Positions 1-15,031 of a stretch of 16,079 nucleotides of DNA are shown here, in pieces (within the stretch, counting starts at the first letter, position 1; every line of letters begins with the position of its first letter). Made by a program: the position numbers and the translations under genes. Below the pieces are notes generated by a model that worked only from the letters and a program-made list of their open reading frames with translations, searched no databases and was not told the origin of the DNA. The stretch is from positions 1 to 16,079 of the forward strand of contig JAGWBY010000060.1 in assembly GCA_021295675.1 (NCBI GenBank), read 5' to 3'. This DNA comes from Candidatus Latescibacterota bacterium. GTDB lineage: Bacteria > Latescibacterota > UBA2968 > UBA8231.

Positions 1-1803
1 CACCGAGGGCTTCCGCGACATGCTGGAGATCGCCCGCCAGATTCGCCCCACCCTCTACGACTTGCAGTTTGAAAAGCCGCGGCCCCTCGTGCCGCGTCAC
101 CGCTGTTTTGGCGTGCCCGAGCGCCTCGATGCCAGCGGCGCAGAGCTAACACCGCTCGACGAAGACGCCCTGCGCCAAGTAGCCGGCAAGCTGCGCGCCG
201 AGGGCGTCGAGTCCATCGCCGTCTGCTTTTTGCACGCCTATGCCAATCCCGTCCACGAGCGGCGGGCCGGAGAGATTATCGCCGGGGTCTTTCCCGAGGC
301 TGTTGTCTCGCTGTCCGCAGTTCCGCGAGTACTTGCGGGCCAGCACGACCGTGATCAATAGCTGCATCCGCCCGGTCGTCGCGCACTACTTGCAGCGGAT
401 CGAAGACCGCTTGGCACAGGCCGGTATCGCCGCTGAGTTGCTCGTAATGCAGAGTAGCGGCGGGGTGTACACCTTTGCCGCGGCGCGGCAAAAGCCAGTG
501 TACATGGTCGAGTCCGGTCCGGCCGCCGGGGTGATTGCGGCAGCGCATTTGGGTCAAGCACGCGGCTACGACCAAGTGATTTCCTTCGACATGGGCGGGA
601 CGACCGCCAAAGCCGGGCTAATCCAAGGCGGTGCGCCCAGCGTGACCAAGGACTACGAGGTCGGGACGACGGCGCAATCGGGCGTCGGGGCGACTCGCGG
701 CGCTGGCTATCCAATCCGCACACCAGTAATCGACCTCGTGGAAATCGGCGCGGGCGGCGGGTCCATCGCCTGGGTGGATCCGGGCGGCATACTGCGAGTC
801 GGTCCCCAAAGCGCTGGAGCCGATCCCGGGCCGGTCTGCTATGGCCAAGGCGGGACTCAACCTACAGTCACCGACGCCAATCTCGTCTTGGGCCGGCTCA
901 ACCCTAACTATTTCCTCGGCGGCGAAATCGCCCTCGACCCAGCGGCCGCACAACGCGCCATCGAACAACACTGCGCCCAGCCGCTGGGCATGGACCTAGT
1001 CGAAGCGGCCCACGGCATCGTCGAGATCGCCAACACCGCCATGGTCAACGCGCTGCGGCTGGTCTCCGTGCAGCGCGGCTACGACCCGCGCGGGCGCGGG
1101 GCCAGCCCACGCCAACCGCCTCGCCGCCCTGACCGAGATCCCCGTGGCGATCATTCCCCAAAGTCCGGGTACAGCTTCGGCCTTGGGCCTGTTGGTGACG
1201 GACTTAAAACACGATTACGCGACGACCCTCATCCAGCGGCTGGACCAAGTAGTACCCCAAGCCTTGGAGCAGACCTTCCGCGAGTTAGAGGCGCAGGGGC
1301 GGGAAACGCTTGGGCGCGAGGGGATGGCGGAAGCGGCAATGGACTTCAGACGCCAAGCGGATCTGCGCTACGTTGGGCAGAGCCACGAGTTGACGCTGCC
1401 GTTGGCAACCGAAACCTTGGGTCCAGCGCAACTAGCGCAGCTATTGGCACAGTTCCACCGCACGCACGACCGCGCCTATGGCTTTAGCGCACCGGGTGAA
1501 GACGTCGAGCTAGTCAGTGTGCGGCTCTCGGCCATCGGCCAGATCGCCAAACCCGCGCTGGCACCGCTGGCACAGGCCACCGGAGAGGCGACGGCCAAAG
1601 GACAGCGCCCGGTGTATTTCGCCGAGAGCGAGAGATTCGTCGATTGCCCGGTGTACGACCGCTATGCACTGGGGGCTGGCGCAGTAGTGCAAGGGCCGGC
1701 CATCGTCGAGGAGATCGATTCAACCACCGTCGTCCATCCTCAGTACCAAGTGCGCGTGGACGAAGTGGGGCAGATGGTGCTGACGGCAGTAGAAGCGCGT
1801 TGA
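1..1803 (+). pseudogene. hyuA: Hydantoinase/oxoprolinase subunit A (N-methylhydantoinase A family), 5'-truncated, two frame breaks
   Basis: This is the ATP-dependent ring-opening subunit of the hydantoinase/5-oxoprolinase/acetone carboxylase family. The start lies before the window, and the reading begins in frame 2 with TEGFRDMLEIARQ. Hallmarks follow in order: IAVCFLHAYANP, STTVINSCIRP, the actin-like phosphate motif FDMGGTTAKAG (near 590), GAGGGSIAWVD, then SAGADPGPVCYG and PTVTDANLVLGRL. The protein is spread over three frames. Frame 2 runs to about 320, where the usual SxEVL between VSL and PQFREY is missing (about 14 bases). Frame 3 runs to about 1092, where the usual xFxLVAFG between YDPR and GAGPAHA is missing (about 23 bases). 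Frame 1 then runs to the TGA at 1801. No stop codon interrupts the homologous parts. A HyuB partner is not downstream and may lie upstream of the window. The substrate cannot be told. As written, no full-length protein can be made. Confidence 0.9.
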
Positions 1804-1813
1804 ACCACTACCA

Positions 1814-2818
1814 ATGACCTGGGGACGCACATACCTGTGGATCGCCATACTGATCTTCGCCGCTGCCGCTTCGGTGGTGGCCCGCCTCGTCGAAATCGGC
1901 GAAGCGAACCTAATAGATGGCAGCAATCCCATTTCCTTTTGCAACCTGCTTTTCGCCGGCAATCTCGTCGCGGCGCTAACCCTGTTCGCCCTCTATCACC
2001 GGGAATGGCGTCCCGCCAGCCTGCGCGCCCTATCGCGTCGGCAATGGCTGATCCAGACAGCCTTGGCCCTTACCTCCGGCGCAATAGCCCCGGCCATGAT
2101 GTTTACGGCCATTGCCCATACCTCTGTCACCAACATCGTCCTGATCGAGACCATAGAAATTCCCCTCGGCCTGTTGCTGGCTTGGCTGCTCTATCGAGAA
2201 AAGTCGAACTGGACAGCCGTACTGGGGGCCTTGTGCGCCCTCGGCGGCGTGGCCACGACCCTCATCTTGCAGATGGACGCGTCGCCAGAGAGTATGGCCG
2301 CAGCGCGGATGCAGGGCGGAGTGGGCTACGGTGAATTCTTTGCCGCCGCCGCTACCGTGCTCCTCGTCTGCGGTGCCGAGATCGGCCGCAAACAACTCCA
2401 GACCATCCCCTTGGGCATCTTCAGCGTCTTCCGCAATATAGTCGGCGCGCTCTTCTTCCTCGGCATTGGCCTATACGTTTTTGGCCTTGACCACTTCGCC
2501 GACATCTTCTCCCCGCTGCTCTGGGGCTGGATGCTGCTGTACGGAGGGATTGTGGTGGCTTGCGGTCAATTGGCGTGGTTTGCCGGCATCAAGCGCGTGC
2601 GCCCGGCCGACATTGCCACAGCGTCGTCCTTTTCGCCGGTAGCCGGCGTGCTCTTCGCCGGTCTCATCTTGGGCGAGGTACCCATGCCCGCCCAGCTCAT
2701 CGGCGGCGGCATCATCCTCGTGGGCATCGCCATCGCCCTGTGGGGCGAGCTACGCGCCACCCGCCCGACGCGGCCACCCAAGACCGACGACAAGGCCAAA
2801 GCCTTCACCGGAGTCTAA
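1814..2818 (+). CDS. EamA/DMT-superfamily transporter, 10 membrane segments
   Basis: A 334-residue, very hydrophobic protein with the layout of the drug/metabolite transporter superfamily. Two EamA-type halves of five membrane helices each lie at roughly residues 5-150 and 175-310, followed by a short charged tail ending TDDKAKAFTGV. Family signatures are visible: the end of the first half has IETIEIPLGLLLAWLLYREK followed by a glycine-rich helix (GALCALGGVATTLIL). The second half has the matching PVAGVLFAGLILGEVPMPAQLIGGGIILVGI. Such proteins export or import small metabolites at the inner membrane, and the substrate is not predictable here. The ATG is 10 bases after the hyuA stop, so the two are probably co-transcribed. 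Its stop is only 5 bases from the stop of the convergent dipeptidase gene, leaving no room for a separate terminator. Confidence 0.9.
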   Translation: MTWGRTYLWIAILIFAAAASVVARLVEIGEANLIDGSNPISFCNLLFAGNLVAALTLFALYHREWRPASLRALSRRQWLIQTALALTSGAIAPAMMFTAIAHTSVTNIVLIETIEIPLGLLLAWLLYREKSNWTAVLGALCALGGVATTLILQMDASPESMAAARMQGGVGYGEFFAAAATVLLVCGAEIGRKQLQTIPLGIFSVFRNIVGALFFLGIGLYVFGLDHFADIFSPLLWGWMLLYGGIVVACGQLAWFAGIKRVRPADIATASSFSPVAGVLFAGLILGEVPMPAQLIGGGIILVGIAIALWGELRATRPTRPPKTDDKAKAFTGV

Positions 2819-2823
2819 TTCAA

Positions 2824-3540
2824 TTACTTCACGGGAAAATCAAAGTACGCGTCTGGATACGGTTCGTCTTTAAGCGTATAGTGCCACCATTCTTTGTCGT
2901 AATTCACAAAACCGTGCTTTTCCATCGCGGACTTTAACAACAGCCGGTTGCGTCTCTGTTGCTCTGAAATCAGCGGATCGTCCGTATTGGACAACGCGTC
3001 GAAATAATCAAATGGCGTACCCATATCCAACTCGGCAGAACTCGCACTCTCGACTAGCGTCAAATCGAGCGTGCTTCCCCTGCTGTGGCCCGATTTGTCT
3101 GCGATATAGCCCTTCTCGATGAGTTGAGATTTATCTTCGTTGGGATAGTACTCCGCCTTCATTTTTTGATCGTCGGCATCGCGCACCCACGCTACAAAGT
3201 GATCCACCGCTTGTTGCGGGCGATAGCAGTCAAAAATTTTCAACGCGTATCCCACCTCGCTTATGTCACGCTGTACTTTTTTGAGTGCCTCACTGGCCGG
3301 TCTAGTCAGAATGCACTTCGCGCTTTCATACCCCCTCACTTTTGTCCCCAAAAAGTTGTCATTTGAATAGTACCGGATATCAAAAACAAGGGACGGGATT
3401 TCGTCGTTGACCACGACAAACTGCTCGGGCATCGACGCATCATCTTCGGCAATAGCAATGGTTGCTTCTTGCGAACAACTCACAAAAAAGAGCAGCGCAA
3501 CAATGCACTGGCCTCGCTGTACAATCGAGAGCACTTTCAT
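2824..3540 (-). CDS. ddpX: D-alanyl-D-alanine dipeptidase, VanX/DdpX type (peptidase M15D), probable lipoprotein
   Basis: A zinc dipeptidase of 238 residues that cleaves D-Ala-D-Ala, a peptidoglycan building block, in VanX/DdpX relatives. The catalytic set is complete: YRP with Arg107, SGHSRGSTLDL giving zinc ligands His152 and Asp159, and EWWH giving Glu217 and zinc ligand His220. The N-terminus is a hydrophobic signal ending FFVSC with Cys22 as the likely lipidation site, so the enzyme is probably anchored in the envelope facing the periplasm. I chose the ATG at 3540 because it starts the signal peptide. A GTG at 3555, overlapping the TGA of tldE (GTGA), would add five residues and would couple translation to tldE. 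Its codons are less GC-biased than those of its neighbours. It is the last gene of the tldD-tldE-ddpX group. Peptidoglycan recycling or defence against D-Ala-D-Ala-binding compounds are both possible; no vanHA genes are visible. Confidence 0.88.
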   Translation of the reverse strand: MKVLSIVQRGQCIVALLFFVSCSQEATIAIAEDDASMPEQFVVVNDEIPSLVFDIRYYSNDNFLGTKVRGYESAKCILTRPASEALKKVQRDISEVGYALKIFDCYRPQQAVDHFVAWVRDADDQKMKAEYYPNEDKSQLIEKGYIADKSGHSRGSTLDLTLVESASSAELDMGTPFDYFDALSNTDDPLISEQQRRNRLLLKSAMEKHGFVNYDKEWWHYTLKDEPYPDAYFDFPVK

Positions 3541-3551
3541 GCGACAGCTTC

Positions 3552-5324
3552 TCACTTGTCGAAGTAGGGATGCGCGGATACAGGCGCTTTGGGGATCTCG
3601 CCACTCGGTGGCTTGAGCGTGATGTCCTCGAACAGGACCATGCGAGGCGTGACGATACTCACGAGGACTTCACCTCCCCGTCCGCGGTAAAAGGGCGAGG
3701 AGTTGCCCTCTGAGCGAAAGGAAACGGTGTTGACCGCGTGCGTCTTGGACACCTTCACGATGTCCTTGAAGGTATAAAGACCGATGCCCGCAAATTCCGC
3801 GTTGCGCACTAGTTCCTCGCGGCCGTCGAGATAGACTTTATGGACGAAGATCGCGTTTGCCAGCTTGTCCTCGTCATCGGAGGAACCGGGAGAAAAGAAG
3901 ATAACCTGAGAGCCGGAAACCTCGTACGACGGGTTGGCAATGTGGGTGACAATGTAGCCGTACTGTTTTTTCTGCCGTTTGATCAGCTTGAAGAATTCCT
4001 TGCGGATGTCCTTTTCGCTCGAACCTTTCTCCGCCTCGACCAAGATATTGCTAGGAGCGACACCCGGACCGCGGCGACTGCCGGTACTCTGGTCAATGCC
4101 GCGCACGGGCGTACGCGTCGTCAGCAGAGTCTCCAACACGCCCTTCCGTATTAAGCGCACCGGGCGCGCCGGCACGCCTTCGTCGTCAACCCGGTAGCCG
4201 CCGAACAAGGGCAGCTTTTTATACGCGTCCATGAGCGGCTCGGCGCGCACGCTGAGGAATTCGGGCAAAACGCGCACGCCAATCTTGTCGAGAAAAGGGT
4301 TTTCCTTCTTCTGCGGATAGTAGCGCTCGTATTGCGGATTGTCGGACAGCGCCCGGCGCGTCGCTAATACGTAGGGCACAAACCCCTGATTGAACAACTC
4401 CGTAGCCGCCTGACCCGAGAAGATCACGGGGCCGGTATAGCGCTCGACCAGCGGTGCCTGGCGCAACTGCTTCAGACGCTCGCCCATCGTCTTGATTTGC
4501 GCGGTCAGCTCGTCGTCGCTGGGCAGGTCTTCCGGCGAACGGGCGTACACCGCGACGAAATCTTCCAGCGGCATGCCGTCGGGAGCTTGGGTAGCGGCGA
4601 CCGCGGTAAAAGTCAACGACGAACTCGTGCGAATAAAAGAAGAACCTTCACTGTTTAGGTAGTAGACCGAGGTGTTGGCCCCGTTGAGACGCACCCGCGA
4701 AGTGTAGATGTCGGGCATCTCGCGGAACAGGTCCGAAAGCTGGCGCACTCGCTGATCCAACTCGTCGAGATCCAAGACGGCGGGTGCCATTTCGTCCACT
4801 TCGGTGGCGGGCTTCTCTCTGCTGAAATCGGGAATCTCTTCGGTGCGGGTTTTGTTCTGCAAGGTAGCGCGCTTCCTAGCTATATCTTCGAGCGCCTTCT
4901 TGTAAGCACCGTCGGTGGCCAGCCAGATTTTGCGTCGCAACTCGTCGTAGTCGTCCTCAAGGGGCAATTGCATGCTGCCCCCGTACATGCGCACCACGCC
5001 CGAACCGCCGAAGGAAAACGAGCGGAAGTTGGTGTTGTCGAGATCGTAGTCTCCGACCCGCACTTCGACACTGAGTGCGCGCGAGTGCCCCTCGCCACTT
5101 CCGAGCAGACTGCCGAAGGTCGCCGAGCTGCCCTTGGACTTTACTTCGCGCACGAGGTAGGAAATGAAGTAGGGCTGTTCTAGGTCTTCGAGCTGGAGTT
5201 GCTGCATCGAGCGCGCCAATTCATCGCGCAGGGCGCGCTGCAAAACGTCGTCTTCAGCGTAGACGGAGGAAAACGCCAGAAAAGTAGCAGTCGTCAGAAC
5301 GTAGATAAAGAACCTTTTGCACAT
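3552..5324 (-). CDS. tldE: Exported TldE/PmbA-type protein lacking the zinc motif
   Basis: A 590-residue member of the TldD/PmbA (peptidase U62) family, and a tandem paralogue of the next gene upstream. It shares the blocks RVGDYDLDNTNF, YYLNSEGSS, LPLFGGYRVDDEGVPA, PSNILVEAEKG and VYLDGREELVRNAEFAGI. At the place where its neighbour has HEIFGH it has NQGFVPY, so the zinc-binding HExxxH is gone. This matches the established TldD/TldE pair, where only TldD carries the metal. The N-terminus MCKRFFIYVLTTATFLAF followed by SSVYA is a signal peptide, so it works outside the cytoplasm, unlike E. coli PmbA. The start at 5324 is chosen for its AGGAG ribosome site; a TTG at 5357 would overlap the tldD stop but would bury the signal peptide. 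It lies 29 bases after tldD and overlaps or abuts ddpX. Confidence 0.9.
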   Translation of the reverse strand: MCKRFFIYVLTTATFLAFSSVYAEDDVLQRALRDELARSMQQLQLEDLEQPYFISYLVREVKSKGSSATFGSLLGSGEGHSRALSVEVRVGDYDLDNTNFRSFSFGGSGVVRMYGGSMQLPLEDDYDELRRKIWLATDGAYKKALEDIARKRATLQNKTRTEEIPDFSREKPATEVDEMAPAVLDLDELDQRVRQLSDLFREMPDIYTSRVRLNGANTSVYYLNSEGSSFIRTSSSLTFTAVAATQAPDGMPLEDFVAVYARSPEDLPSDDELTAQIKTMGERLKQLRQAPLVERYTGPVIFSGQAATELFNQGFVPYVLATRRALSDNPQYERYYPQKKENPFLDKIGVRVLPEFLSVRAEPLMDAYKKLPLFGGYRVDDEGVPARPVRLIRKGVLETLLTTRTPVRGIDQSTGSRRGPGVAPSNILVEAEKGSSEKDIRKEFFKLIKRQKKQYGYIVTHIANPSYEVSGSQVIFFSPGSSDDEDKLANAIFVHKVYLDGREELVRNAEFAGIGLYTFKDIVKVSKTHAVNTVSFRSEGNSSPFYRGRGGEVLVSIVTPRMVLFEDITLKPPSGEIPKAPVSAHPYFDK

Positions 5325-5353
5325 GGGATAGCTCCTGCCGGATGGGAGAGGAC

Positions 5354-7145
5354 TCAAAGGAGGTCGTCCGCTTCTTCTTCAGCGGACTCGGAAAACGGTG
5401 CTTCGAGGATGGGGCGGCGCTCTTGGGACTTCTCCTTCTTCTGCACTTCAATCTGCGAGATGAAAATACCAGGAGAGACCGCTGCTACGGGCACGCCTCC
5501 TGACTCAGCACCACAGATGCCGTTGAACACGTCGGGCTGATCGTCGGCCGCGGCGATCTGGCTGAAGGCGGTGAGTGGCGTGCCGATCAGATCAACTCCG
5601 CGCACCAGTTCCTCGCGCCCATCGGTGTAAATCCGGTACACCAAGATGGGAAGCACGTTGAAGGCGTTGGGTATGGTGCGGCCGGTGATGGTGAAGCCCC
5701 CCTGGATGTCCTCGAAGTAGAGACCAAACTCCTTCCCCTCCATGCGGCACTGTTCGATGAGCATCTCCTTGAGCTGATCCCGGGTCAGCGGCTCCGAGGT
5801 CTCGACGATGAGATTGGACTGGCGCGCCACCGGGGCGTAGCCCGCCTGCTTGCGTCCGTGGCCGTTGGAGTTGGGGAAATTCTCAATTGGCGAGCGCGAC
5901 ATGAGGAAGCGGCGGAAAACCCCGTTCTCGACCACGGCCACCCGCTGTCCCTTGACGCCCTGATTGTCGTACGCATAGGCCCCCACCAGATCCTTGCCAG
6001 CGCTGCTGGCCTGAGTGGGATCGAAGTAAACCGAGAAGGTCTCGGGCAGGACTTTCTCTCCTATTTTCTTTTTAAAGGTCTGGCCCTCGTCCTCGCGCTT
6101 CTGGCGATGGCCTTCGATGCGGTGACCGAAGATTTCGTGGAAGAGGACGCCGCTGGCGCGGCCCGACAGAATCGCCGGACCCGTGTAGGGAGCGACCACC
6201 GGGGCTTCGCGCAGGGCGTGCAAGTCGGCGATCATGTCCTCCACTAAGGCGAGGACCTCCTCGTCGCTGGGCAGGCCCTCCGGGGCAAAGGCGGAGAAGG
6301 ATTCGTAGCGCGGCAATTCCATGCCGTCGTCGGCCTTGGTGACGGTAGAGCACCTGCGAAGTTTGGATCTCGCTGCCCTCGCTGTTGACGTATTGGCAAG
6401 TCGAGATATTGGCCGAGAGGGTGGCGTCGGCTTCGTAGATGTCGCCGGATTGGGCGAAGGGGGCCGTGTATTTCTTGAGCTTGGCCTCCCATTCGTCGCG
6501 GGAAATGTCAAAGGAGGCGGGGGCTTCCACATAGCGCTCGACCGGCTCCTTGGAGAAATCGTCCGACTGGTCTTCCTCTTCGACCTTGACCTGGACGTTG
6601 GTCTTGACCGTGGTCAGTTGTTCGATGGCACGCTTGTATTTCTTGTCGGTGTGATACCACAGCACGCTGCGAATGGCGTCTGGATCGTCCTCAATGGGAA
6701 TTTCGATCATCGAATAGCGGTCGGAGAAATTGCTAGGACCGCCGCGCACCTGATGCGTATTGTCGAAGGCGTAGTCTCCCACGCGCAGATCAATATCGAG
6801 CTGGCGGCGGCGCGATTCGTTGCTGTAGGTCAGCGCGCCAAAGGAAGCTCCGACCCTGATCCCCTCCGTCTCCGTGATTTCGTAGCTGAGGTAATAGGGC
6901 GGGATCGGCTGCTCCTTGAGCACACTGAAGGAGCGAGTCAATTCCTCCTGCATGGCCTGCAGCGTAGGACTGGGCGAGCTATCCACAATAGCACCCATAC
7001 CTGGCGTAGGCAGCCTAGGCATATTCCGTTCGCCGGTCTCCCCATCGTCTGCTCCAAGCGGAGAAGAGGTCTCAGCCCAAACGCCGGTCGCGGTGAACGC
7101 GGCGCAGACGAGGCCAAGGTATAAAAGTCTGGAAAGCGATCTCAT
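5354..7145 (-). pseudogene. tldD: Exported TldD-type zinc protease with intact HExxxH, broken by one frame shift
   Basis: The catalytic member of the TldD/TldE pair. It starts at ATG 7145 (AAGG ribosome site upstream) with a signal peptide MRSLSRLLYLGLVCAAF ending GVWA, so the product is exported. The HExxxH zinc motif reads HEIFGH (plus-strand 6122-6139) and is preceded by GPAILSGRASGVLF. Conserved blocks RVGDYAFDNTH, YVNSEGSEIQTS, AYAYDNQGVKGQ and IYTDGREELVRGVDLIGTPL are present. Around 6340-6350 the frame changes between SEIQTSQVLYR and TKADDGMELPRY. Aligned to the adjacent paralogue (TSSSLTFTAVAATQAPDGM), 16 bases are present where 30 are expected, so about 14 are missing, in a segment N-terminal to the active site. 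Everything before and after reads cleanly. The C-terminus ends in an acidic tail (SAEEEADDLL). It probably opens an operon with tldE and ddpX. Confidence 0.88.
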
Positions 7146-7294
7146 TGGCGTACCTTTCTTTGGTTTAGCGCAGAAATCTCTGCATGTCGGCAACTTAGCT
7201 AGCATAGGTAGACATCGGGAATCAGACGTCCCTTTGGGATGCGGGTTACCTTCCCGTTCTCAGCCGCTTGATGACGTGATATGCGGGCGACCTG
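7146..7294 (-). promoter_or_regulatory. Short gap before tldD with a small inverted repeat at 7170-7183
   Basis: The 149 bases between the cupin stop and the tldD start hold a perfect 5-base inverted repeat with a 4-base loop (GCAGA and TCTGC, 7170-7183), about 25 bases before the tldD ATG. It lies in the likely 5' untranslated leader and could be an operator or a small leader hairpin. No convincing -35/-10 pair is seen. The cupin may be co-transcribed through this gap. Confidence 0.3.
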
Positions 7295-7903
7295 CTATAC
7301 CCGCTCGGCCTGGGGCTCGGCCGCTCCGTGGGCATGATCCCACAAATGTCCTCGCCGCTTCTGGCCCTCTAGCGTCGTTTCAAAGTACACCCCCCGCACT
7401 GGCTCGTGCACCAACGGCATATCGTGATGATGCCCCATGCCCGTGGCAAGGCAGTCTCCCGGCTTCATTTCGTACGCCTTGCCCTCGGAAACAGCGCGAG
7501 CCTGACCCTCCAAGATGACCCAATATTCGTCGCAGTCGTGAAAGTGGCTATCGAAATTGGTCCATTTCTCGTACGGGATCGGATCGCCCTTGTCCTCGGG
7601 CTTAGAGCTATTGTCCATGTTGAAGATGCCCGAGCCGCCCGTCTCCGCCCCCCAGCGTGCCGCCTCTTCTACTTCCAACACCTCAAAAGACCCTGGACCA
7701 GTCAAATCTATATTGGCACCCGCAGCAGCTTCCACCTCCTCGGCACCCACCCGCAGCCGACAGCCCCCCTCTCCCACAATCAGCTTCTCCACCTCTCCAC
7801 GACGCGCAAAGCAGTGTTCATCGCCTGCGTTGAGCCGCACGACCTCAAAATGCTCCAACTCACACCAATCGGGGTACTGGTCCTCACTTCTGAACATCGG
7901 CAT
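7295..7903 (-). CDS. Bicupin-like protein with one intact metal site
   Basis: A 202-residue protein with two cupin-like halves. The C-terminal half has a full cupin motif 1, HFHDCDEYWVILEG (ligands His120, His122, Glu126), and motif 2 around PGD (148-150) with a cluster of histidines at 158-160, so it should bind a divalent metal. The N-terminal half (about 15-85) has the same strand pattern (LIVGEGGCRLRVG, AGANIDLTG) but lacks the metal histidines. It is cytoplasmic, with no signal peptide. The start is supported by an AAGGA ribosome site just before ATG 7903. It may be a small dioxygenase, an isomerase or a sugar-binding protein; the fold does not tell which. It sits upstream of tldD on the same strand and is divergent from the serine hydrolase gene. 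Confidence 0.85.
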   Translation of the reverse strand: MPMFRSEDQYPDWCELEHFEVVRLNAGDEHCFARRGEVEKLIVGEGGCRLRVGAEEVEAAAGANIDLTGPGSFEVLEVEEAARWGAETGGSGIFNMDNSSKPEDKGDPIPYEKWTNFDSHFHDCDEYWVILEGQARAVSEGKAYEMKPGDCLATGMGHHHDMPLVHEPVRGVYFETTLEGQKRRGHLWDHAHGAAEPQAERV

Positions 7904-7974
7904 AACTTTCTTCCTTCTCTCCGTGTTTAAAAGGTTTTAGAGTATTATGTCGCATATAACATTGGGGAGAACGG
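7904..7974. promoter_or_regulatory. Divergent intergenic region, probable promoters for the cupin and the serine hydrolase
   Basis: This is a 71-base AT-rich gap between two divergent genes. Plus-strand -10-like words are TATTAT (7943-7948) and TATAAC (7955-7960); minus-strand reading gives CATAAT. No clear -35 box accompanies them. A GGGGAGA ribosome site precedes ATG 7975. The word ATATAACA also occurs before the propeller gene (around 9244-9251). Confidence 0.35.
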
Positions 7975-8028
7975 ATGACTAGGCAACCACGCTACCAGAC
8001 GCGGCCCTTCCAAACATCCCCGCATTGA
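7975..8028 (+). other. 17-codon ORF overlapping the start of the serine hydrolase; leader peptide or broken N-terminus
   Basis: ATG 7975 has a good ribosome site (GGGGAGA) and encodes MTRQPRYQTRPFQTSPH, ending in a TGA that overlaps the TTG at 8025 used by the serine hydrolase frame. The TTG itself has no ribosome site. Just upstream, the hydrolase frame reads LPDAALPNIPALSDRLD, which looks like the natural N-terminal run-in of this family, but it is closed by a TAG at 7980. The simplest reading is that ATG 7975 is the real start and a small deletion near 7980 split it from its gene. A coupled leader peptide is the alternative. Confidence 0.35.
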
Positions 8029-9165
8029 GCGACCGGCTCGACTCGGCCGTGCAGAGCTTCATCGACGCTCAGCAGCTCTCCGGTGCGGTTATCATCGTCG
8101 CTCGGCACGGTGCCGCAGCCCACTTCGAAGCTCGCGGCATGAGGGATGTCGAAACCGACGCGCCCATGAGCAAGGACACCATCTTCCGCATCTATTCGAT
8201 GACCAAGGCGGTCGGCAGCGTGGCCGCGATGATGCTCTGCGAAGAAGGTAAACTACAACTCGATGCCCCAGTCTCGCACTACCTTCCCGAACTGCAGGAG
8301 ATGCAGGTGGCTCCCAACCCAGCAGCAGGAGAGCACACCCCAGTAGCTGCGAAACAGAGGATGACCGTCCGCGACCTGCTGCGTCACACCTCCGGCCTGC
8401 CCGGCAACGTCGCCGTCGATACGCTCTACCGCGAGGCCGGGTTACCTCCCCTGAGTGAGTGCGACCTGCGGGAAATAGTAGCCCACCTCAACCGCGTCCA
8501 ACTCCTGTTCCACCCCGGAACGCAGTGGTACTATAGCATTGCGGCCGACATTGTCGGGCGGCTCGTGGAGGTGGCTTCGGGCCGCCTGTTTGACGAATTC
8601 CTCGCCGAGCGAATTTTTCAACCGCTGGGCATGGAAGACACCGGGTTCCACGTCCCAGCGGACAAACTCCATCGGTTTGCAGCCATGTACGGCCCGCACC
8701 CCAGCCCCACAGGGCGGCACCGCAACCAAGTGGAGCTTTCAGGAGCGGCCCAAGTTCCTCTCCTGCGGCGGCGGACTGGTCTCCACCGGTGCCGACTACC
8801 TGCGCTTTTGCCTGATGCTCGCGGGCAAGGGCGCGCTAGCTGGACAACGGCTGCTGCAAGCAGATACGGTCGAACTAATGACCCGCAACCAGTTACCCAT
8901 GTCGCTGATACCCATCCAAAAGCAACCGCAGGAACGCTACCAAGGGCTGGGCTTTGGACTGGGCTTTTCCGTTCGGGTGCAGCCGTCCGATTGGGTACCA
9001 GCCTCGCAGATCGGCGAATACGGCTGGATCGGCGGAGCCAGCACCGAGTTCTGGATTGCGCCGCAGTCCGAATTAGTGGTGATCACCCTCGCCCAATACA
9101 TGCCCTTCTCCGACCTCAGCCGAGTCGTCAAACAAATCGTGTATGACGCCCTAGAAGAGGACTAA
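8025..9165 (+). pseudogene. Class C beta-lactamase-fold serine hydrolase, broken by a frame shift
   Basis: This belongs to the beta-lactamase/transpeptidase-like family (AmpC, EstB and D-aminopeptidase relatives). The catalytic SxxK is SMTK (Ser58, Lys61 counted from 8025) in IFRIYSMTKAVGS. Also present are LLRHTSGL, WYYSIAADIVGRLVE in the place of the second motif, and FQPLGMEDTGFHVP. Frame 3 carries these up to MYGPHP (about 8700). The rest, from about 8715, is in frame 1: RPKFLSCGGGLVSTGADYLRF, and then EYGWIGGASTEFWIAPQSELVVITL, the usual C-terminal motif region. Both frames stay open across the join, so the exact point is uncertain. No signal peptide is seen, so it is probably a cytoplasmic esterase or peptidase rather than a resistance enzyme. 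The start is unsure (TTG 8025 or a damaged ATG 7975). The product ends AYxxLEED-like (YDALEED) at 9165. Confidence 0.85.
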
Positions 9166-9198
9166 GGCGCGTTGAAAACGGTCGATCGAAAAAAACAA

Positions 9199-9230
9199 CT
9201 TGTCATGCTGAGCAAAGCGAAGCATCTCAT
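9199..9230. repeat. Small palindromic intergenic repeat element with hairpin potential
   Basis: The 115-base gap between the serine hydrolase and propeller genes contains a hairpin at 9205-9225: arms ATGCT and AGCAT, then a tandem GA opposite GA, then GC/GC closing an AAA loop. The surrounding text (TTGTCATGCTGAGC, then AGCGAAGCATCTC) matches, from memory, a short dispersed intergenic repeat common in several environmental bacterial genomes. Only this one copy was noticed in the window. Confidence 0.55.
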
Positions 9231-9280
9231 ACCCAAAATGCGTATATAACACAGTCCCGCCCTCAACGAGGCTTCCATTT

Positions 9281-10735
9281 ATGATACTCAAAAACAACCC
9301 GCAAAGCGCACCTTCCGATCACCTCGTCTTGTTCCCCTTCGACGACTACAGTATCCCGTTTCAGCACGGCGTCAGACTCCACCTCGTGCCCTATAAATCC
9401 GGCGTCGATCGCACCCGAATTGTGGTGCCTCTTGGGCCGCCCGGCGCACCAGATTTTGCCCGCGTCATCTACTACGGCACAGTGCTGCGAGTAGGCGACG
9501 AACTGTGGATGTGGTATCTCGGACACGGGGATGACGATCACTGGCATCAACGGGTGTGTTTTGCCAAGAGCCGCGATGGCTACCATTGGGAAAAACCAAA
9601 CCTCGGCTTGGTGGAATACCGCGGCTCGACGGCCAATAATCTGGTACACATACTGGACGGCGAGCACCATATTCAGGCGTGCGTGGTATTTTACGAACCC
9701 GACGACCCAGACCCCACGCGCCGCTTCAAGGCGATCATCGAAACGAGCAAGTACTCGCCCAAATTCGCCGTCGCCTTCAGTGCCGATGGCCTGCGCTGGT
9801 GCGAACCCGAGCGCCAGCCCGAGCTGCCGTCGTGCGAAATGACCGGCGGCACCAAGTTTAACGGCTGCTACTATCTCAGCGGCCATGGCGGCAGTCATTT
9901 CGGCAGCTTGCGGCAACTGGAGACCTTTGTCTCATACGATTTTGAACATTGGCAGCAGGCCTCCTGCCTCGGCTTGCGGCGCGAAAACATCCCACCGCGC
10001 CCCATGGTGTACGGCCCGCACCAAGGCGAACAGGTGCATCTCGGTGCCGCCCTGTGGAATCGCGGCAACGTGCTTGTCGGGCTGTACGGCCAGTGGCACG
10101 GCCCGGAAAACGACGACCGGCGGCACGTTACCATGGATCTCGGCCTCGTGGTCAGCAACGACGCCCTGCACTACCGCGAACCCATTCCCGACTTTCGCAT
10201 GGTGACCGCGGGCGAAGACGGCTTCTATCACCTGCCCGCAGAATTCAGCTTCAAACACTCCGCACTCGTGCAGGGACAGGGATTTGAAAACATCGGCGAC
10301 GAAACGCTGTTCTGGTACGCGCCTTGGCCGGAAAGCATCAGCGACGGCGTCCGACTAGCGAGCTGGCAGCGAGACCGCTTGGGATACTTCCAAGTGTTTG
10401 ACGCTCCCCGTTCACCCCAGGTCCGCCATGTGATCTCAGCGCCAATCGATCTAGAAAATCAACCTGCACAGGTCTCGCTGAACATCGACGGCTTATCGGA
10501 ATATGGTCAGGTAACGGTTGAAATCCTCGACGAGTACTTCCAGCCTCTAGCCGATTATACCGCCGAGCATTGCCAGCCCCTCGAATCGGGATTGCAGCAG
10601 CCGGTGCGCTGGAACAACCAAGAATGGGTCGAACACCGGGATGGAGCCATTCGGATTCGCCTCAATTTTGTCGGAATCCGCCCCGAAGATCCAAAGCTAT
10701 ACGCGATTTACGTGACAAGCCACGAGTTGACTTGA
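9281..10735 (+). CDS. Glycosidase-like five-bladed beta-propeller protein (GH32/GH43-like fold)
   Basis: A 484-residue protein, probably cytoplasmic as no signal peptide is seen. It has repeated propeller-blade signatures of the type seen in GH32/43/68 relatives: FAKSRDGYHWEKPNLGLVEY, FAVAFSADGLRWCEPE, FVSYDFEHWQQASCLGL and LVVSNDALHYREPIPDF, where a short strand S-x-D-x-x-x-W/F opens each blade. The last 120 residues (from about VRHVISAPIDLENQPAQVSL) form a separate beta-rich domain, as in GH32-type proteins. Conserved acidic and histidine-rich clusters (YLGHGDDDHWHQ, YGPHQGEQVHLG, GQWHGPENDDRRH) line what should be the central pocket. The enzyme class and substrate cannot be named. The ATG at 9281 has a GAGG about nine bases before it, and ATATAACA further upstream may be a -10 region. 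Its codons are strongly C-ending, unlike the next gene. Confidence 0.75.
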   Translation: MILKNNPQSAPSDHLVLFPFDDYSIPFQHGVRLHLVPYKSGVDRTRIVVPLGPPGAPDFARVIYYGTVLRVGDELWMWYLGHGDDDHWHQRVCFAKSRDGYHWEKPNLGLVEYRGSTANNLVHILDGEHHIQACVVFYEPDDPDPTRRFKAIIETSKYSPKFAVAFSADGLRWCEPERQPELPSCEMTGGTKFNGCYYLSGHGGSHFGSLRQLETFVSYDFEHWQQASCLGLRRENIPPRPMVYGPHQGEQVHLGAALWNRGNVLVGLYGQWHGPENDDRRHVTMDLGLVVSNDALHYREPIPDFRMVTAGEDGFYHLPAEFSFKHSALVQGQGFENIGDETLFWYAPWPESISDGVRLASWQRDRLGYFQVFDAPRSPQVRHVISAPIDLENQPAQVSLNIDGLSEYGQVTVEILDEYFQPLADYTAEHCQPLESGLQQPVRWNNQEWVEHRDGAIRIRLNFVGIRPEDPKLYAIYVTSHELT

Positions 10736-10768
10736 CGAGCATCGGACCAGCGCCTTTTTTGGGCCGCT

Positions 10769-10808
10769 ATTGATTCAATCATCAACTGACACTTAGGATG
10801 CACAAACC
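10769..10808 (+). promoter_or_regulatory. Candidate promoter for the M14 gene
   Basis: TTGATT (10770-10775) and TAGGAT (10794-10799) are separated by 18 bases and resemble a sigma-70-type -35/-10 pair. The -35 word overlaps a short palindrome ATTGA-T-TCAAT (10769-10779). The predicted transcript would begin within a few bases of the mini-ORF ATG at 10809. This is motif reading only. Confidence 0.3.
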
Positions 10809-10853
10809 ATGAACGTCAAAGAAACCCTTTTTCATCTGCTGCGGGATATGTGA
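10809..10853 (+). other. 14-codon mini-ORF whose stop overlaps the M14 start
   Basis: ATG 10809 encodes MNVKETLFHLLRDM and stops at TGA 10851-10853, which overlaps the M14 ATG at 10853 (TGATG). An AGGA lies 10 bases before its ATG. It may be a coupled leader peptide, or the joined first and last codons of a gene whose body was lost, given the other small deletions in this window. No function is claimed. Confidence 0.3.
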
Positions 10854-11559
10854 TGGGTCAACGGGATTACAATGCTGTTGTCAGGCGCGTGGAAGCGGTG
10901 TCTGGTATTGATGTGCAGATATTGGGTGAGGTTGAAGGTTTGCCGATTTTGTGTGCGTCTGCTGGTAGGGAAGACGCACCGGTTGTTTATATCAATGGCG
11001 GGACGCACGGTGATGAACCGGCTGGGGTGGAGGCCGCGCTCGCTTTTTTGCAGGGGGAGGGGGAGCGCTGGGCGGATAGAGTGCGTTTTGAAGTTATTCC
11101 GTGTTTGTGTCCGTGGAACTATGCTCACAATGCCCGACTCAATGCACAGGATGTCGATGTGAATTGGGCGTTTTTGCGCGATGATGTGCCCGAGATTGAG
11201 ATTTTGCAGGGTTTTTTGGCGGGAAGAGTTTTTGGGATTGGGAGAGTCCGGGATTTTATCTGTACGAGATGTTTGGAGACCGGGGCTCTCTGGGACGGGC
11301 GATGGTCGAGCGGGTGACACGGGTTTGTCCGATTAACGAGAATGCCGAGATTGAGGGCGAGGTTGCGGTCAATGGGGTGGTTCATCCCAATATGGAGGTG
11401 GCAAGGCGGAAGTACGGGGAGGGCATACCTATCGCTTTGTTCCAGCGAGGCCATACGGGGCATCTGGTGACGTCGGAAACCCCGACGGCGCAACCGATGG
11501 ATGTGCGCGTTGCGGCGCATCTGGCAGCTATTGAGGTGATGGTGGAGGCTAATGTTTAA
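10853..11559 (+). pseudogene. M14/AstE-AspA-type zinc deacylase-like protein, broken by a deletion at the third zinc ligand
   Basis: A member of the succinylglutamate desuccinylase/aspartoacylase branch of the M14 carboxypeptidase fold. The first two zinc ligands are in GGTHGDEPAG, and the substrate-side block reads WNYAHNARLNAQDVDVNWAF. The frame changes near 11237-11243: after GRVFG (frame 2) the protein resumes in frame 1 as WESPGFYLYEMFGDRG and runs to HTGHLVTSETPTAQPMDVRVAAHLAAIEVM. The expected LDLHED-like segment, which carries the third zinc histidine, is missing with an estimated 22 bases, so the gene as written is dead. Codon use is unlike its neighbours: only 7 of the first 56 codons end in C, against 27 of the first 50 in the propeller gene. 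I start it at ATG 10853 (a GTG at 10850 adds one residue). The stop lies 9 bases from the convergent DUF6785 gene. Confidence 0.85.
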
Positions 11560-11568
11560 ATCAATTCG

Positions 11569-13488
11569 CTACATATTCGAAAGCAAGCGTCCTTTTTCTG
11601 CCGTCAACGCATAGATCGCACCCCATATCCCCGAGACCGAAACCTCGCCCAAAATCAGCCCCAAGAAAAACGGCTTGGCGTTCTGGAACAGGCGCACGCC
11701 GCCAAAGCGCAGGATGACCAGCTTCAACAGCCAAGCAATCAGCGCCGAAAACCATATCTGACTCGTCAGCCAACCCACGGCAATAGCAAAGCCGATCGGG
11801 TGAAAGGGCCACCAAAACCACCGGTGCTGCGCCCACATTAAAAAGCCCTCCACGGCCGCGCCAATCCCCTTGAAGAGCCAGCCGCGCATGTCGGCCTCGG
11901 GCATGTTGAGAATGGTCGGGCCGATATAGGGCCAGCCGTGGGCACCGGCCCAATTGATCAGCGACAGATTAATCGCTCCATGAGTGTAGGCCAGTTTCAA
12001 GGTCATGTAGGCCGCGGCCAACAGGCTGCACACCAGCGCCAGCATCAGGCCCCAAAACAGCCGCGTCTTGGGGCCGGGGATTAGCTCGGCGAGTTTGAGG
12101 CCGTTGGCGCAGGCAACCATCGGCGAAGTGCGCGATTCGCCCTGCCAAATAAAAGTGAAGTTGAGGGCGACCAATCCCTTGGCCCCGAGGATCGAAGTGC
12201 CCAAGCCCGAAATGATGAAGTACGCCGGCACAATGGGGCTGCGGGCGGTGGCCACGCCGCCGGTAGCTACCACGCGCGCGACCAAGATGAAGAACAGCAA
12301 GCTGACGACGAGCAGGACCGGAAGCACCGCAATCGGCACTCCCGAGCGCCAGAGCCAAACAGCGACGAAGAGCAGGCTGCCCAAAAAGCCGAGCAAGGCC
12401 GTGCGGTAGCGGAGCAACTCCTCGCTGTCATCGACGCCACCGCGCGGGTCCCAGAGTTTGCGCCACACTTCTTTTAGATGGGGACGGGCGTTCCACAGCC
12501 CAAAGAGCACCAACACAATGACCGCGCCGGTGGCTTGATGGGTCAGGTCAGCCGGCTGCGAGTACTCGTATGCGCTCAGGCGCTCGGTGCTGGCAATGCC
12601 GATGGTCTTGAAGACTCCTTCTTCCACCTTGGAGAACACGTAGAAGAACCAGATGCTGAACGTGATCTCGAGATTGACCAAGTAGAAGAAGCCGACCCAA
12701 GCCAAGTTGAGTGCAACCGGCAGGTGCAAGGTATGGTTGAAAAAAGAAAAACGGCCGCGAGGATTGTATTCGGGCACGATGGGGAAGTAGTGGTTGAGGG
12801 CGTTGAGGCTGAGCAGGATGCAGGGCACGGCAAACCCCAGCCACATCCGCTTGTCCTTAAAAAAAGAAGCCACGCGTACGTTGGTGTCCTTCTCAATCAT
12901 ATTCTGCGGTAGCTGAACCATCGGATAGGTCAGCCGCTCGTGCTCCGACCACTGGCGGTGGAGGATGGCGCTCATGCAGATCAGCATGAAGCTCATGGCC
13001 ACGATCAACGCCAGCCAGTAGGCCATCGGCTCCACCCAGACGCCCCACGGGATGGACTCGCCCTTCGGCAGGCCCTCGTAGTAATTCTTGATGGCCTCGA
13101 AGTCCTGCGGCGCGATCCACGCGGGGATAAAGTCGTAGAACAGTTCGGCGTAGTTGTTTTCTGGGGTGGCGTAGTAGAAGGGATAGACGATAGTGCCAAT
13201 GAGGAAGAACATCAGGCCCCACGTCGGCACCGTGACCGCCATCATCAACATGCAGTAAATCAGCACCAGATCGGCTTTGGACAGAGCGAAGTGGCGGCCG
13301 AGCAGAGCCACGAACCCATTGACGGCAAAGGTCAGGACAAAAAAGAGAAAGAGCGCACCCGGCGAAGAGGGATTGAAGCCGACCCAATAGTAATTGAATA
13401 CGACCCCGTACGGCGCGAGCAGACCCACCGCTAGGGAAAGGGCGATGCCGATTAGCAGTCCCTTGATGCTGAAAAGCGATTTGGGCAT
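11569..13488 (-). CDS. Large polytopic membrane protein, DUF6785/DUF6784-like
   Basis: A 639-residue inner-membrane protein with about 12 to 14 hydrophobic helices. They start at residue 10 (GLLIGIALSLAVGLLAPYGV) and recur up to the C-terminus (FLGLILGEVSVSGIWGAIY). Soluble connections carry recognisable blocks: LHRQWSEHERLTYPMVQLP after the fourth helix or so, NPRGRFSFFNHTLHLPVALNL, ERLSAYEYSQPADLTHQATGA, ATGGVATARSPIVPAY and MAQHRWFWWPFHPIGFA-like text (MWAQHRWFWWPFHPIGFAIA). These resemble the DUF6785/DUF6784 proteins, which look distantly like oligopeptide (OPT) transporters; no substrate is established to my knowledge. It is the last gene of the GH32-PhyH-SDR group, 29 bases after the SDR stop, and has no clear ribosome site before ATG 13488. 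A transport role for the compound handled by these enzymes is an inference. Confidence 0.75.
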   Translation of the reverse strand: MPKSLFSIKGLLIGIALSLAVGLLAPYGVVFNYYWVGFNPSSPGALFLFFVLTFAVNGFVALLGRHFALSKADLVLIYCMLMMAVTVPTWGLMFFLIGTIVYPFYYATPENNYAELFYDFIPAWIAPQDFEAIKNYYEGLPKGESIPWGVWVEPMAYWLALIVAMSFMLICMSAILHRQWSEHERLTYPMVQLPQNMIEKDTNVRVASFFKDKRMWLGFAVPCILLSLNALNHYFPIVPEYNPRGRFSFFNHTLHLPVALNLAWVGFFYLVNLEITFSIWFFYVFSKVEEGVFKTIGIASTERLSAYEYSQPADLTHQATGAVIVLVLFGLWNARPHLKEVWRKLWDPRGGVDDSEELLRYRTALLGFLGSLLFVAVWLWRSGVPIAVLPVLLVVSLLFFILVARVVATGGVATARSPIVPAYFIISGLGTSILGAKGLVALNFTFIWQGESRTSPMVACANGLKLAELIPGPKTRLFWGLMLALVCSLLAAAYMTLKLAYTHGAINLSLINWAGAHGWPYIGPTILNMPEADMRGWLFKGIGAAVEGFLMWAQHRWFWWPFHPIGFAIAVGWLTSQIWFSALIAWLLKLVILRFGGVRLFQNAKPFFLGLILGEVSVSGIWGAIYALTAEKGRLLSNM

Positions 13489-13517
13489 GGGTGGGCCGAC
13501 GCGTTCCGTCGATGATC

Positions 13518-14281
13518 CTACTCAGCAGCCGAGGCGGCCAAAAGCCCCCCATCCACCGGCAGGGACGCCCCGGTGATGCAGCCAGCGGCTGGCGAGCAGA
13601 GGAAGACCACGGCCCGGCCAATGTCCTCGGGGGTTCCCGGACGGCGCAGGGGAACTATGTCACGGTGTCGGTCGCCAAGGATGCCCAACGCCGGAGGCGG
13701 TTCGTTGAAGACGTGATCGGTGTCCATGTATCCGGGCATGATGGCATTGCAACGGATTCCGTGTTCGCCCAAGTCAACGGCCATGCTTTCGGTCAGGCGC
13801 AACACGCCGGCTTTGGCCGCCCCGTACGCGGTGTCGTTTTTCCACGCCCGGCGTCCGTGTACCGAGGAGGTGCTGACGATGGCTCCTCCGCCGCCCTGCG
13901 CCACCATGGCGCGCGCCGCTTGCTGCGAGCACAGGAAAAACCCCTTGAGGCCCACGTCGAGATTTTGGTCCCAATTCTCCTCGCTGAGTTCAAGGAAGGG
14001 CTCGCCCGTGCCACCGTAGGGATTGTTGACCAAGATATCTATGCGGCCAAACCGTTCGAGAAACGCCGCGAACATCGCCCCGACTTGAGCACTGTCGGAA
14101 ATATCGCCAGCGAAGAACTCGGCCTCGCGGCCCATGGCGCGGATCAGGCCCAGAGTTTTGCCGGCATCGTCGTCGTCGTGCAGGTCGTTGATCCCCAAGA
14201 CAAGGCAATGCCGCGACCGATGCGGCGCTTGCCGCCGGTGACGAAGGCTTTCTTTCCACTTAGCGAATATGGATCGGACAT
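13518..14281 (-). pseudogene. Short-chain dehydrogenase/reductase (SDR), broken near the N-terminus
   Basis: An NAD(P)-dependent oxidoreductase of the classical SDR family. It starts at ATG 14281 with an AAGGAG site, 15 bases after the PhyH stop. The N-terminus reads MSDPYSLSGKKAFVTGGKRR then IGRGIAL, the nucleotide-binding TGxxxxIG turn. Near 14196-14205 the frame changes and the protein resumes as GINDLHDDDDAGKT; the usual helix-strand segment (ALAEAGADV-like) between them is missing, an estimated 22 bases. The rest is intact: ILVNNPYGG, catalytic Ser in STSSVHG, YGAAK (catalytic Tyr and Lys) and a C-terminus GASLPVDGGLLAASAAE. The downstream frame happens to stay open back to 14462 inside phyH, but that extension has no SDR character. 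The likely role is oxidation of an alcohol or sugar in the operon's pathway. Confidence 0.88.
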
Positions 14282-14296
14282 AGTGTACTCCTTGCG

Positions 14297-15031
14297 TTAA
14301 ACGATCTCGGGATGTTCGTGGATCGAAGGGGTGGCCATGATGCGCTTCTGTCGTTCGGTCAGCTCGCCGTACTCGTCGAGGTTGTAAAACTCCTTGGCCC
14401 ACGTCGAGTAGCCGGGGCTGTACTTGTAGAGCAAGGTGCGGCGCTGGTGCTCGGAGCGCCACGGCATGGTGCCGTGAATGAGGGCCTCGGTAAAGAACAG
14501 CGCATCCCCGGCTTTAGCTGTCGGTTGGACCACGTAGTGCGCGTCGCGCTCAAAGCGCCTGACATCTTGCGGCAGGTTGCGGGGGTAATTGGTCTTGTGG
14601 CTGCCCGGCACGCAGGCAAAACCACCGTCGCCCTCATTGGCATCGGCGAGAAAAAAGGTCACCACGCTCAGGCCATTGCGCATCTGGCCGTCGCGGTAGC
14701 TGAACCAGTGGTCGGTATCTTGGCTCGGGCCGCCGTGCAGACCGCCCCGGGCGTCGCCGCGATTCATAATAATGGCGTAGTCGTGGTCGATGCGGACCTT
14801 GGGGCCGATGAGTTCGACCAAATAGGGCAGGATCTTGGGGTGATCGATCAGGTCTTTGGTGGCTTGACCCCAGCTACTGACCTTGTTCAGATCGTTGCGG
14901 GGGTGGTTGTCCCAGCCGGCGATATACCGGTCCACCAGCGCGTTGAGATCGTCCAGTTCCTGCGGGCTCAGAACGTCTTTAATAACCAGATAGCCCTCTA
15001 AGTCAAAGACGAATTTTTCTTCTTCGTTCAT
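14297..15031 (-). CDS. Phytanoyl-CoA dioxygenase (PhyH)-family Fe(II)/2-oxoglutarate oxygenase with HxG in place of HxD
   Basis: A 244-residue cytoplasmic oxygenase of the PhyH family. The 2-oxoglutarate/iron core is visible: His99 in GLHGGP, the distal His186 in ALIHGTMPW, and Arg198 in QRRTLLYKY for the 2-oxoglutarate carboxylate. FFLADANEGDGGFACVPGSH is the typical mid-domain strand. The 87-residue spacing between the two histidines fits the family, so the position of the usual third iron ligand (Asp, two after the first His) is Gly101. Proteins with LHGG at this point recur, as I recall, in planctomycete- and poribacteria-like genomes. The start at 15031 has a strong AAGGAG site and sits 11 bases after the GH32 stop; a longer in-frame extension to 15166 would overlap GH32 and is rejected. 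The substrate is unknown. Confidence 0.9.
   Translation of the reverse strand: MNEEEKFVFDLEGYLVIKDVLSPQELDDLNALVDRYIAGWDNHPRNDLNKVSSWGQATKDLIDHPKILPYLVELIGPKVRIDHDYAIIMNRGDARGGLHGGPSQDTDHWFSYRDGQMRNGLSVVTFFLADANEGDGGFACVPGSHKTNYPRNLPQDVRRFERDAHYVVQPTAKAGDALFFTEALIHGTMPWRSEHQRRTLLYKYSPGYSTWAKEFYNLDEYGELTERQKRIMATPSIHEHPEIV

Follow-up and report, generated by a model that had tools for sequence, protein, structure and literature searches.

The stretch of DNA analysed here (the window, 16,079 nucleotides of contig JAGWBY010000060.1 from a Candidatus Latescibacterota bacterium) contains seven breaks in six genes, and at each of them 14–23 bases are gone. These losses are very probably an artefact of assembly or of later processing, and not changes in the living genome. 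This reading is favoured because selection is not relaxed in the broken genes, in-frame stops are absent, the ends of the losses are blunt and Ku was found in none of 11 genomes of the genus; because an intact serine hydrolase exists elsewhere at 99% protein identity and the broken form stands alone as a singleton; because coding gaps between the relatives never exceed 3 bases in the alignments compared; and because the breaks adjoin stretches that are exactly shared with congeners, a pattern that was recognised post hoc. Pseudogenes made by assembly have been documented (PMC11017572).

The comparison genomes are 11 genomes of the same genus of Latescibacterota, and the relatives against which the breaks were measured have a DNA identity to the window of about 87–95%. 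The nearest of them, G001, has 21% of the sampled 31-letter words of the window in common. Thirteen window genes were compared with 15 of 55 loci in seven genomes, and 11 of the genes had a match under a cut-off of 75% identity with 80% or more of the gene covered. In every relative used the orthologue has no internal stop across the matched stretch, and the losses measured on DNA occur in none of the relatives compared. The same gene neighbourhood occurs in genomes recovered from metagenomes under the labels Latescibacterota, Latescibacteria, Gemmatimonadetes or Gemmatimonadota, several of which, going by isolate names, presumably come from sponges.

The hyuA gene (hydantoinase/oxoprolinase; 2–1803, forward strand; PF05378, PF01968 and PF19278), which starts outside the window, is split into three frame pieces. 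It lacks 14 bases at 320–321 and 23 bases at 1092–1093, and both segments are present in 7 of 7 same-genus genomes. A short-chain dehydrogenase/reductase (SDR) gene (13518–14297, reverse strand; PF13561 and PF00106) is broken near its N-terminus by the absence of 22 bases at 14196–14197, which 6 of 6 same-genus genomes retain. The longer form across the hyuA and SDR breaks is also found at four loci of G009 and G005 (L012, L025, L026 and L037), which at 73–78% fall under the identity and coverage cut-off and are not included in these counts. The gene that the preliminary description named M14 (10853–11559, forward strand) lacks 22 bases at 11234–11235; the segment is present in 5 of 5 same-genus genomes and the gene is intact in all five relatives, and neither of its two pieces has a Pfam match. 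In the cupin gene (7295–7903, reverse strand; PF07883) the loss of 21 bases at 7658–7659 keeps the reading frame, and again 5 of 5 same-genus genomes have the segment. Between these genes lies an EamA-type transporter (window 1814–2818) of which G001 carries two copies (L002 and L003), each 94% identical to that of the window and lying more than 600 kb apart.

Two genes of the tldD/pmbA family are found on the reverse strand. The second (3552–5357; PF19289) is intact in the window. The first is broken, and its outer limits, 5354–7205, are those of two overlapping frames; the C-terminal piece matches PF19289, and no Pfam family matches the N-terminal one. Here 17 bases are absent at 6342–6343, as measured against the one DNA relative (G001, 1 of 1) and matched by the spacing in the intact proteins P0241 and P0242. 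Two further TldD relatives show irregularities of their own, both judged by eye. P0243 (420 amino acids, on an ENA contig of 13,481 bases) has apparent repeated frame changes within about 70 residues when set against P0241, a pattern as in a noisy assembly. P0253 (311 amino acids, on an ENA contig of 3,834 bases) misses a long internal in-frame stretch that begins a few residues past the position of the window's tldD break.

The serine hydrolase of the beta-lactamase family (8025–9165, forward strand, with PF00144 in both pieces; the real start may be upstream) has no close DNA relative among the genomes searched, and its break at 8699–8704 was measured by protein spacing. Eight intact proteins were retrieved, P0122 being the closest, and in all eight the spacing implies 23 missing bases; a homologue with 53% identity (L056) implies the same number. 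Among proteins, the frameshifted frame of the window itself turned up as P0121, a singleton of 373 residues on a contig of 58,826 bases. The same search yielded P0122, an intact protein of 412 residues from another contig, which has 99% identity to the query along the part that precedes the break (61% of the query). Since P0121 is already a predicted protein, the junction predates gene prediction and was not made by cutting the window. The broken SDR and tldD frames of the window are not among the 120 proteins listed, where they may hide inside 90% clusters, and therefore the serine hydrolase junction is the only one confirmed in the protein collection. Break hotspots common to other contigs were also considered. 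Some truncated homologues stop near the serine hydrolase break (P0128, P0133 and P0192) and one near the tldD break (P0290); no such claim is made, because other truncated homologues stop at different places and may owe their truncation to the end of a contig.

Together with the next gene (9281–10735, no Pfam match) the serine hydrolase occupies a region, 7955–10750, for which the 11 genomes of the genus gave no close match on DNA. Homologues of both genes (L056 and L078) adjoin in G035, a genome of another family, on contig C59 at 52048–53904, and there the homologue of the gene at 9281–10735 has one in-frame TAG. Against its three best homologues this gene shows gaps of 1–5 residues, none of them in the closest, and no gap of the size of the breaks.

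All six breaks of the preliminary description, which had counted six in five genes, are thus real, five of them measured by DNA alignment to same-genus genomes and that of the serine hydrolase by protein spacing; the in-frame loss in the cupin gene had been overlooked, which brings the tally to seven breaks in six genes. Of the lengths given there (14, 23, 14, 22 and 22 bases) four were exact, and that of tldD is 17 and not 14. The similar size of the losses, which it had also pointed out, holds up as a narrow range with a mean of 20.3 bases and a standard deviation of 3.5 over the seven losses. Under the best-fitting geometric length law, the probability that all seven fall within 14–23 bases, an interval set post hoc, is 1.6e-5. 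Natural variation between the relatives looks different: when they are set against one another, 116 gene comparisons with 134,045 aligned bases in total (the pairs are not independent) contain 23 gaps, namely 14 of one base, one of two and eight of three. The alignments of the window with its relatives cover 56,765 bases and contain 38 gaps, 31 of which are the six deletions. In the remaining seven it is the window that has additional bases: 6, 1 and 5 close to the tldD start, 1 and 5 in the M15 gene, and three bases in two further cases. The tldD-start and M15 sets each appear against only one relative, and both add up to a multiple of three. A pattern of line lengths was also considered and rejected; the junction positions have no common remainder modulo 60, 70 or 80.

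Apart from these losses the genes look healthy. In a codon comparison with the relatives, pN/pS is 0.05–0.14 in the broken hyuA, tldD, cupin and SDR genes, and 0.055–0.14 in the intact EamA, second tldD, DUF6785, PhyH and GH32 genes; the intact M15 gene has 0.19 against its one relative. The broken M14 gene reaches 0.17–0.34, and between the relatives themselves the same gene has 0.18–0.40. There are no in-frame stops in the codon comparisons of window genes, and the compared genes contain no other lesion that leaves the frame broken and no uncompensated one-base indel. The broken genes compared at the DNA level, which excludes the serine hydrolase for want of a close DNA relative, are under normal purifying selection, and in none of them is it relaxed. 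With pN/pS like that of intact genes and no stops, it follows that no decay of these genes preceded the losses. The lengths of the losses disregard the reading frame and are therefore as expected without selection.

Genuine decay is known in the genus, and it has another appearance. In G004 the second tldD gene (L034) is decayed, with five small losses of 1–4 bases within 176 bases, further large losses and 79–89% identity, and in G003 only two fragments of it are left (L040). Ordinary early gene decay in a symbiont would fit relatives that are uncultured metagenome bacteria, and bacterial pseudogene decay as described in PMC2916853 likewise produces frame-breaking deletions across several neighbouring genes. 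According to that paper, premature stops and indels of less than 10 bases are among the most frequent lesions of pseudogenes, and neither type, in frame-breaking form, is present in the compared window genes; nor is there relaxed selection. Set against the small indels, large losses and lowered identity of G004, decay of this kind is a highly improbable explanation for the window.

The ends of the lost segments speak to mechanism. The preliminary description had proposed looking for short direct repeats there; the outcome is negative, with 0–2 bases of microhomology at the six sites that can be compared on DNA. Deletion by slippage or between short repeats, with which the window deletions share their shortness, needs such end repeats and was rejected. 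Hairpin-guided loss was rejected as well. When the lost segments with 15-base flanks, taken from the relatives, were folded and compared with 300 random 52-base pieces, only one of six sites (the second in hyuA) folded strongly, the other five folding within the range of the random pieces or more weakly, so that there is no hairpin excess. Ku/LigD end joining leaves scars that are nearly blunt deletions with little microhomology, and in this the window deletions resemble them; unlike such scars they come without insertions and without a spread of sizes. Moreover, Ku (PF02735) was found in 0 of the 11 genus genomes, which are 75–94% complete and bear on the window by kinship, in a search whose control was positive in one of 14 control genomes, Bacillus subtilis.

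These results also bear on the more unusual idea that the deletions are real, that is, that a mechanism in the cell which favours lengths of about two helical turns has acted very recently and frequently in this lineage. The clustering of sizes at 14–23 bases and the clean ends are in its favour, as is the fact that an assembly cause for the size was not found. Against it stand the unrelaxed selection in the broken genes, the missing microhomology and hairpin signals, the absence of Ku from the genus genomes, the absence of the losses from all relatives compared and the existence of P0122, a serine hydrolase with 99% identity that is intact. Losses as dense as about one in 2.3 kb would, furthermore, disrupt a large share of the genes simultaneously. 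We consider such a mechanism very improbable, and likewise a Ku-less Latescibacterota population that excises near-blunt segments of 14–23 bases at this rate, too recently for selection to relax. The preliminary description had left two explanations side by side, and of these dropped assembly segments are now favoured, and deletion with a preferred length is disfavoured by selection, the blunt ends, Ku and P0122.

If the losses were made during assembly or processing, the contig may have arisen from the joining of pieces whose ends fell slightly short of each other, or unresolved stretches of small size may have been taken out of it. One version of the latter is that the junctions once held runs of N, unresolved or masked, which were deleted ahead of gene prediction and of the cutting of the window. 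The blunt ends, a window without any non-ACGT letter and the P0121 junction, which was already there before gene prediction, are consistent with this. The comparison records, however, keep their N, though it is a single letter wherever it was seen, in 5 of 75 loci that all belong to G009, and more variation in length would be expected of gap runs; within the artefact explanation, this route appears rather unlikely.

Joins of pieces may sit at graph branch points common to related species, as DNA of several congeners may be present in the same sequenced sample. At all six junctions comparable on DNA, an exact run found in some congener abuts one side, each of at least 51 bases, and it is these stretches that suggest branch points. 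The longest abutting runs are 53, 67, 97, 51, 82 and 93 bases, compared with a gene-matched mean of 39 (p 0.0026, post hoc). Taken by side, the left runs have p 0.0005, the right ones are not enriched (p 0.45) and both together have p 0.011, again post hoc; another background gives 0.0012, 0.45 and 0.02 for the same statistics. The run statistic was picked out post hoc from several that were calculated, and conservation over a broader stretch on either side of the breaks is not raised at four half-widths (p 0.14–0.25). That the breaks lie at graph branch points where the assembler could not separate species is therefore a plausible but tentative proposal.

The narrow size range, for which there is no named assembly cause, and the high base quality elsewhere count against an artefact. 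In a plain de Bruijn contig every word across a junction should be present in the reads, which would favour real molecules unless the junctions are scaffold joins. Among the literature matches listed there is no artefact of this size class and no assembly cause for the narrow range, and the passages considered from PMC3914690 and PMC13087279 contain nothing usable on losses of 14–23 bases. The closest known case is that of the assembly-made pseudogenes of PMC11017572. There, too, genes look broken, the organism's own gene is probably whole and near-identical relatives are intact. The difference is that the passages considered from PMC11017572 relate frameshifts and internal stops to the choice of assembler, to the platform and to coverage, and describe no blunt losses of 14–23 bases. 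In the window the test against intact relatives rests on 87–95% DNA identity, and the serine hydrolase alone has a relative at 99%, on the protein level (P0122).

Should the losses be real, they would represent a new kind of genome erosion, which would be remarkable. If they are an artefact, as we think very probable, genes in such contigs are miscounted as lost. Screening for one-base errors would miss a clean loss of about 20 bases, and the single loss among the seven that leaves the reading frame unchanged would go unnoticed altogether. Claims of gene loss based on metagenome contigs would then need to be checked for selection, for the spectrum of lesions and against relatives.
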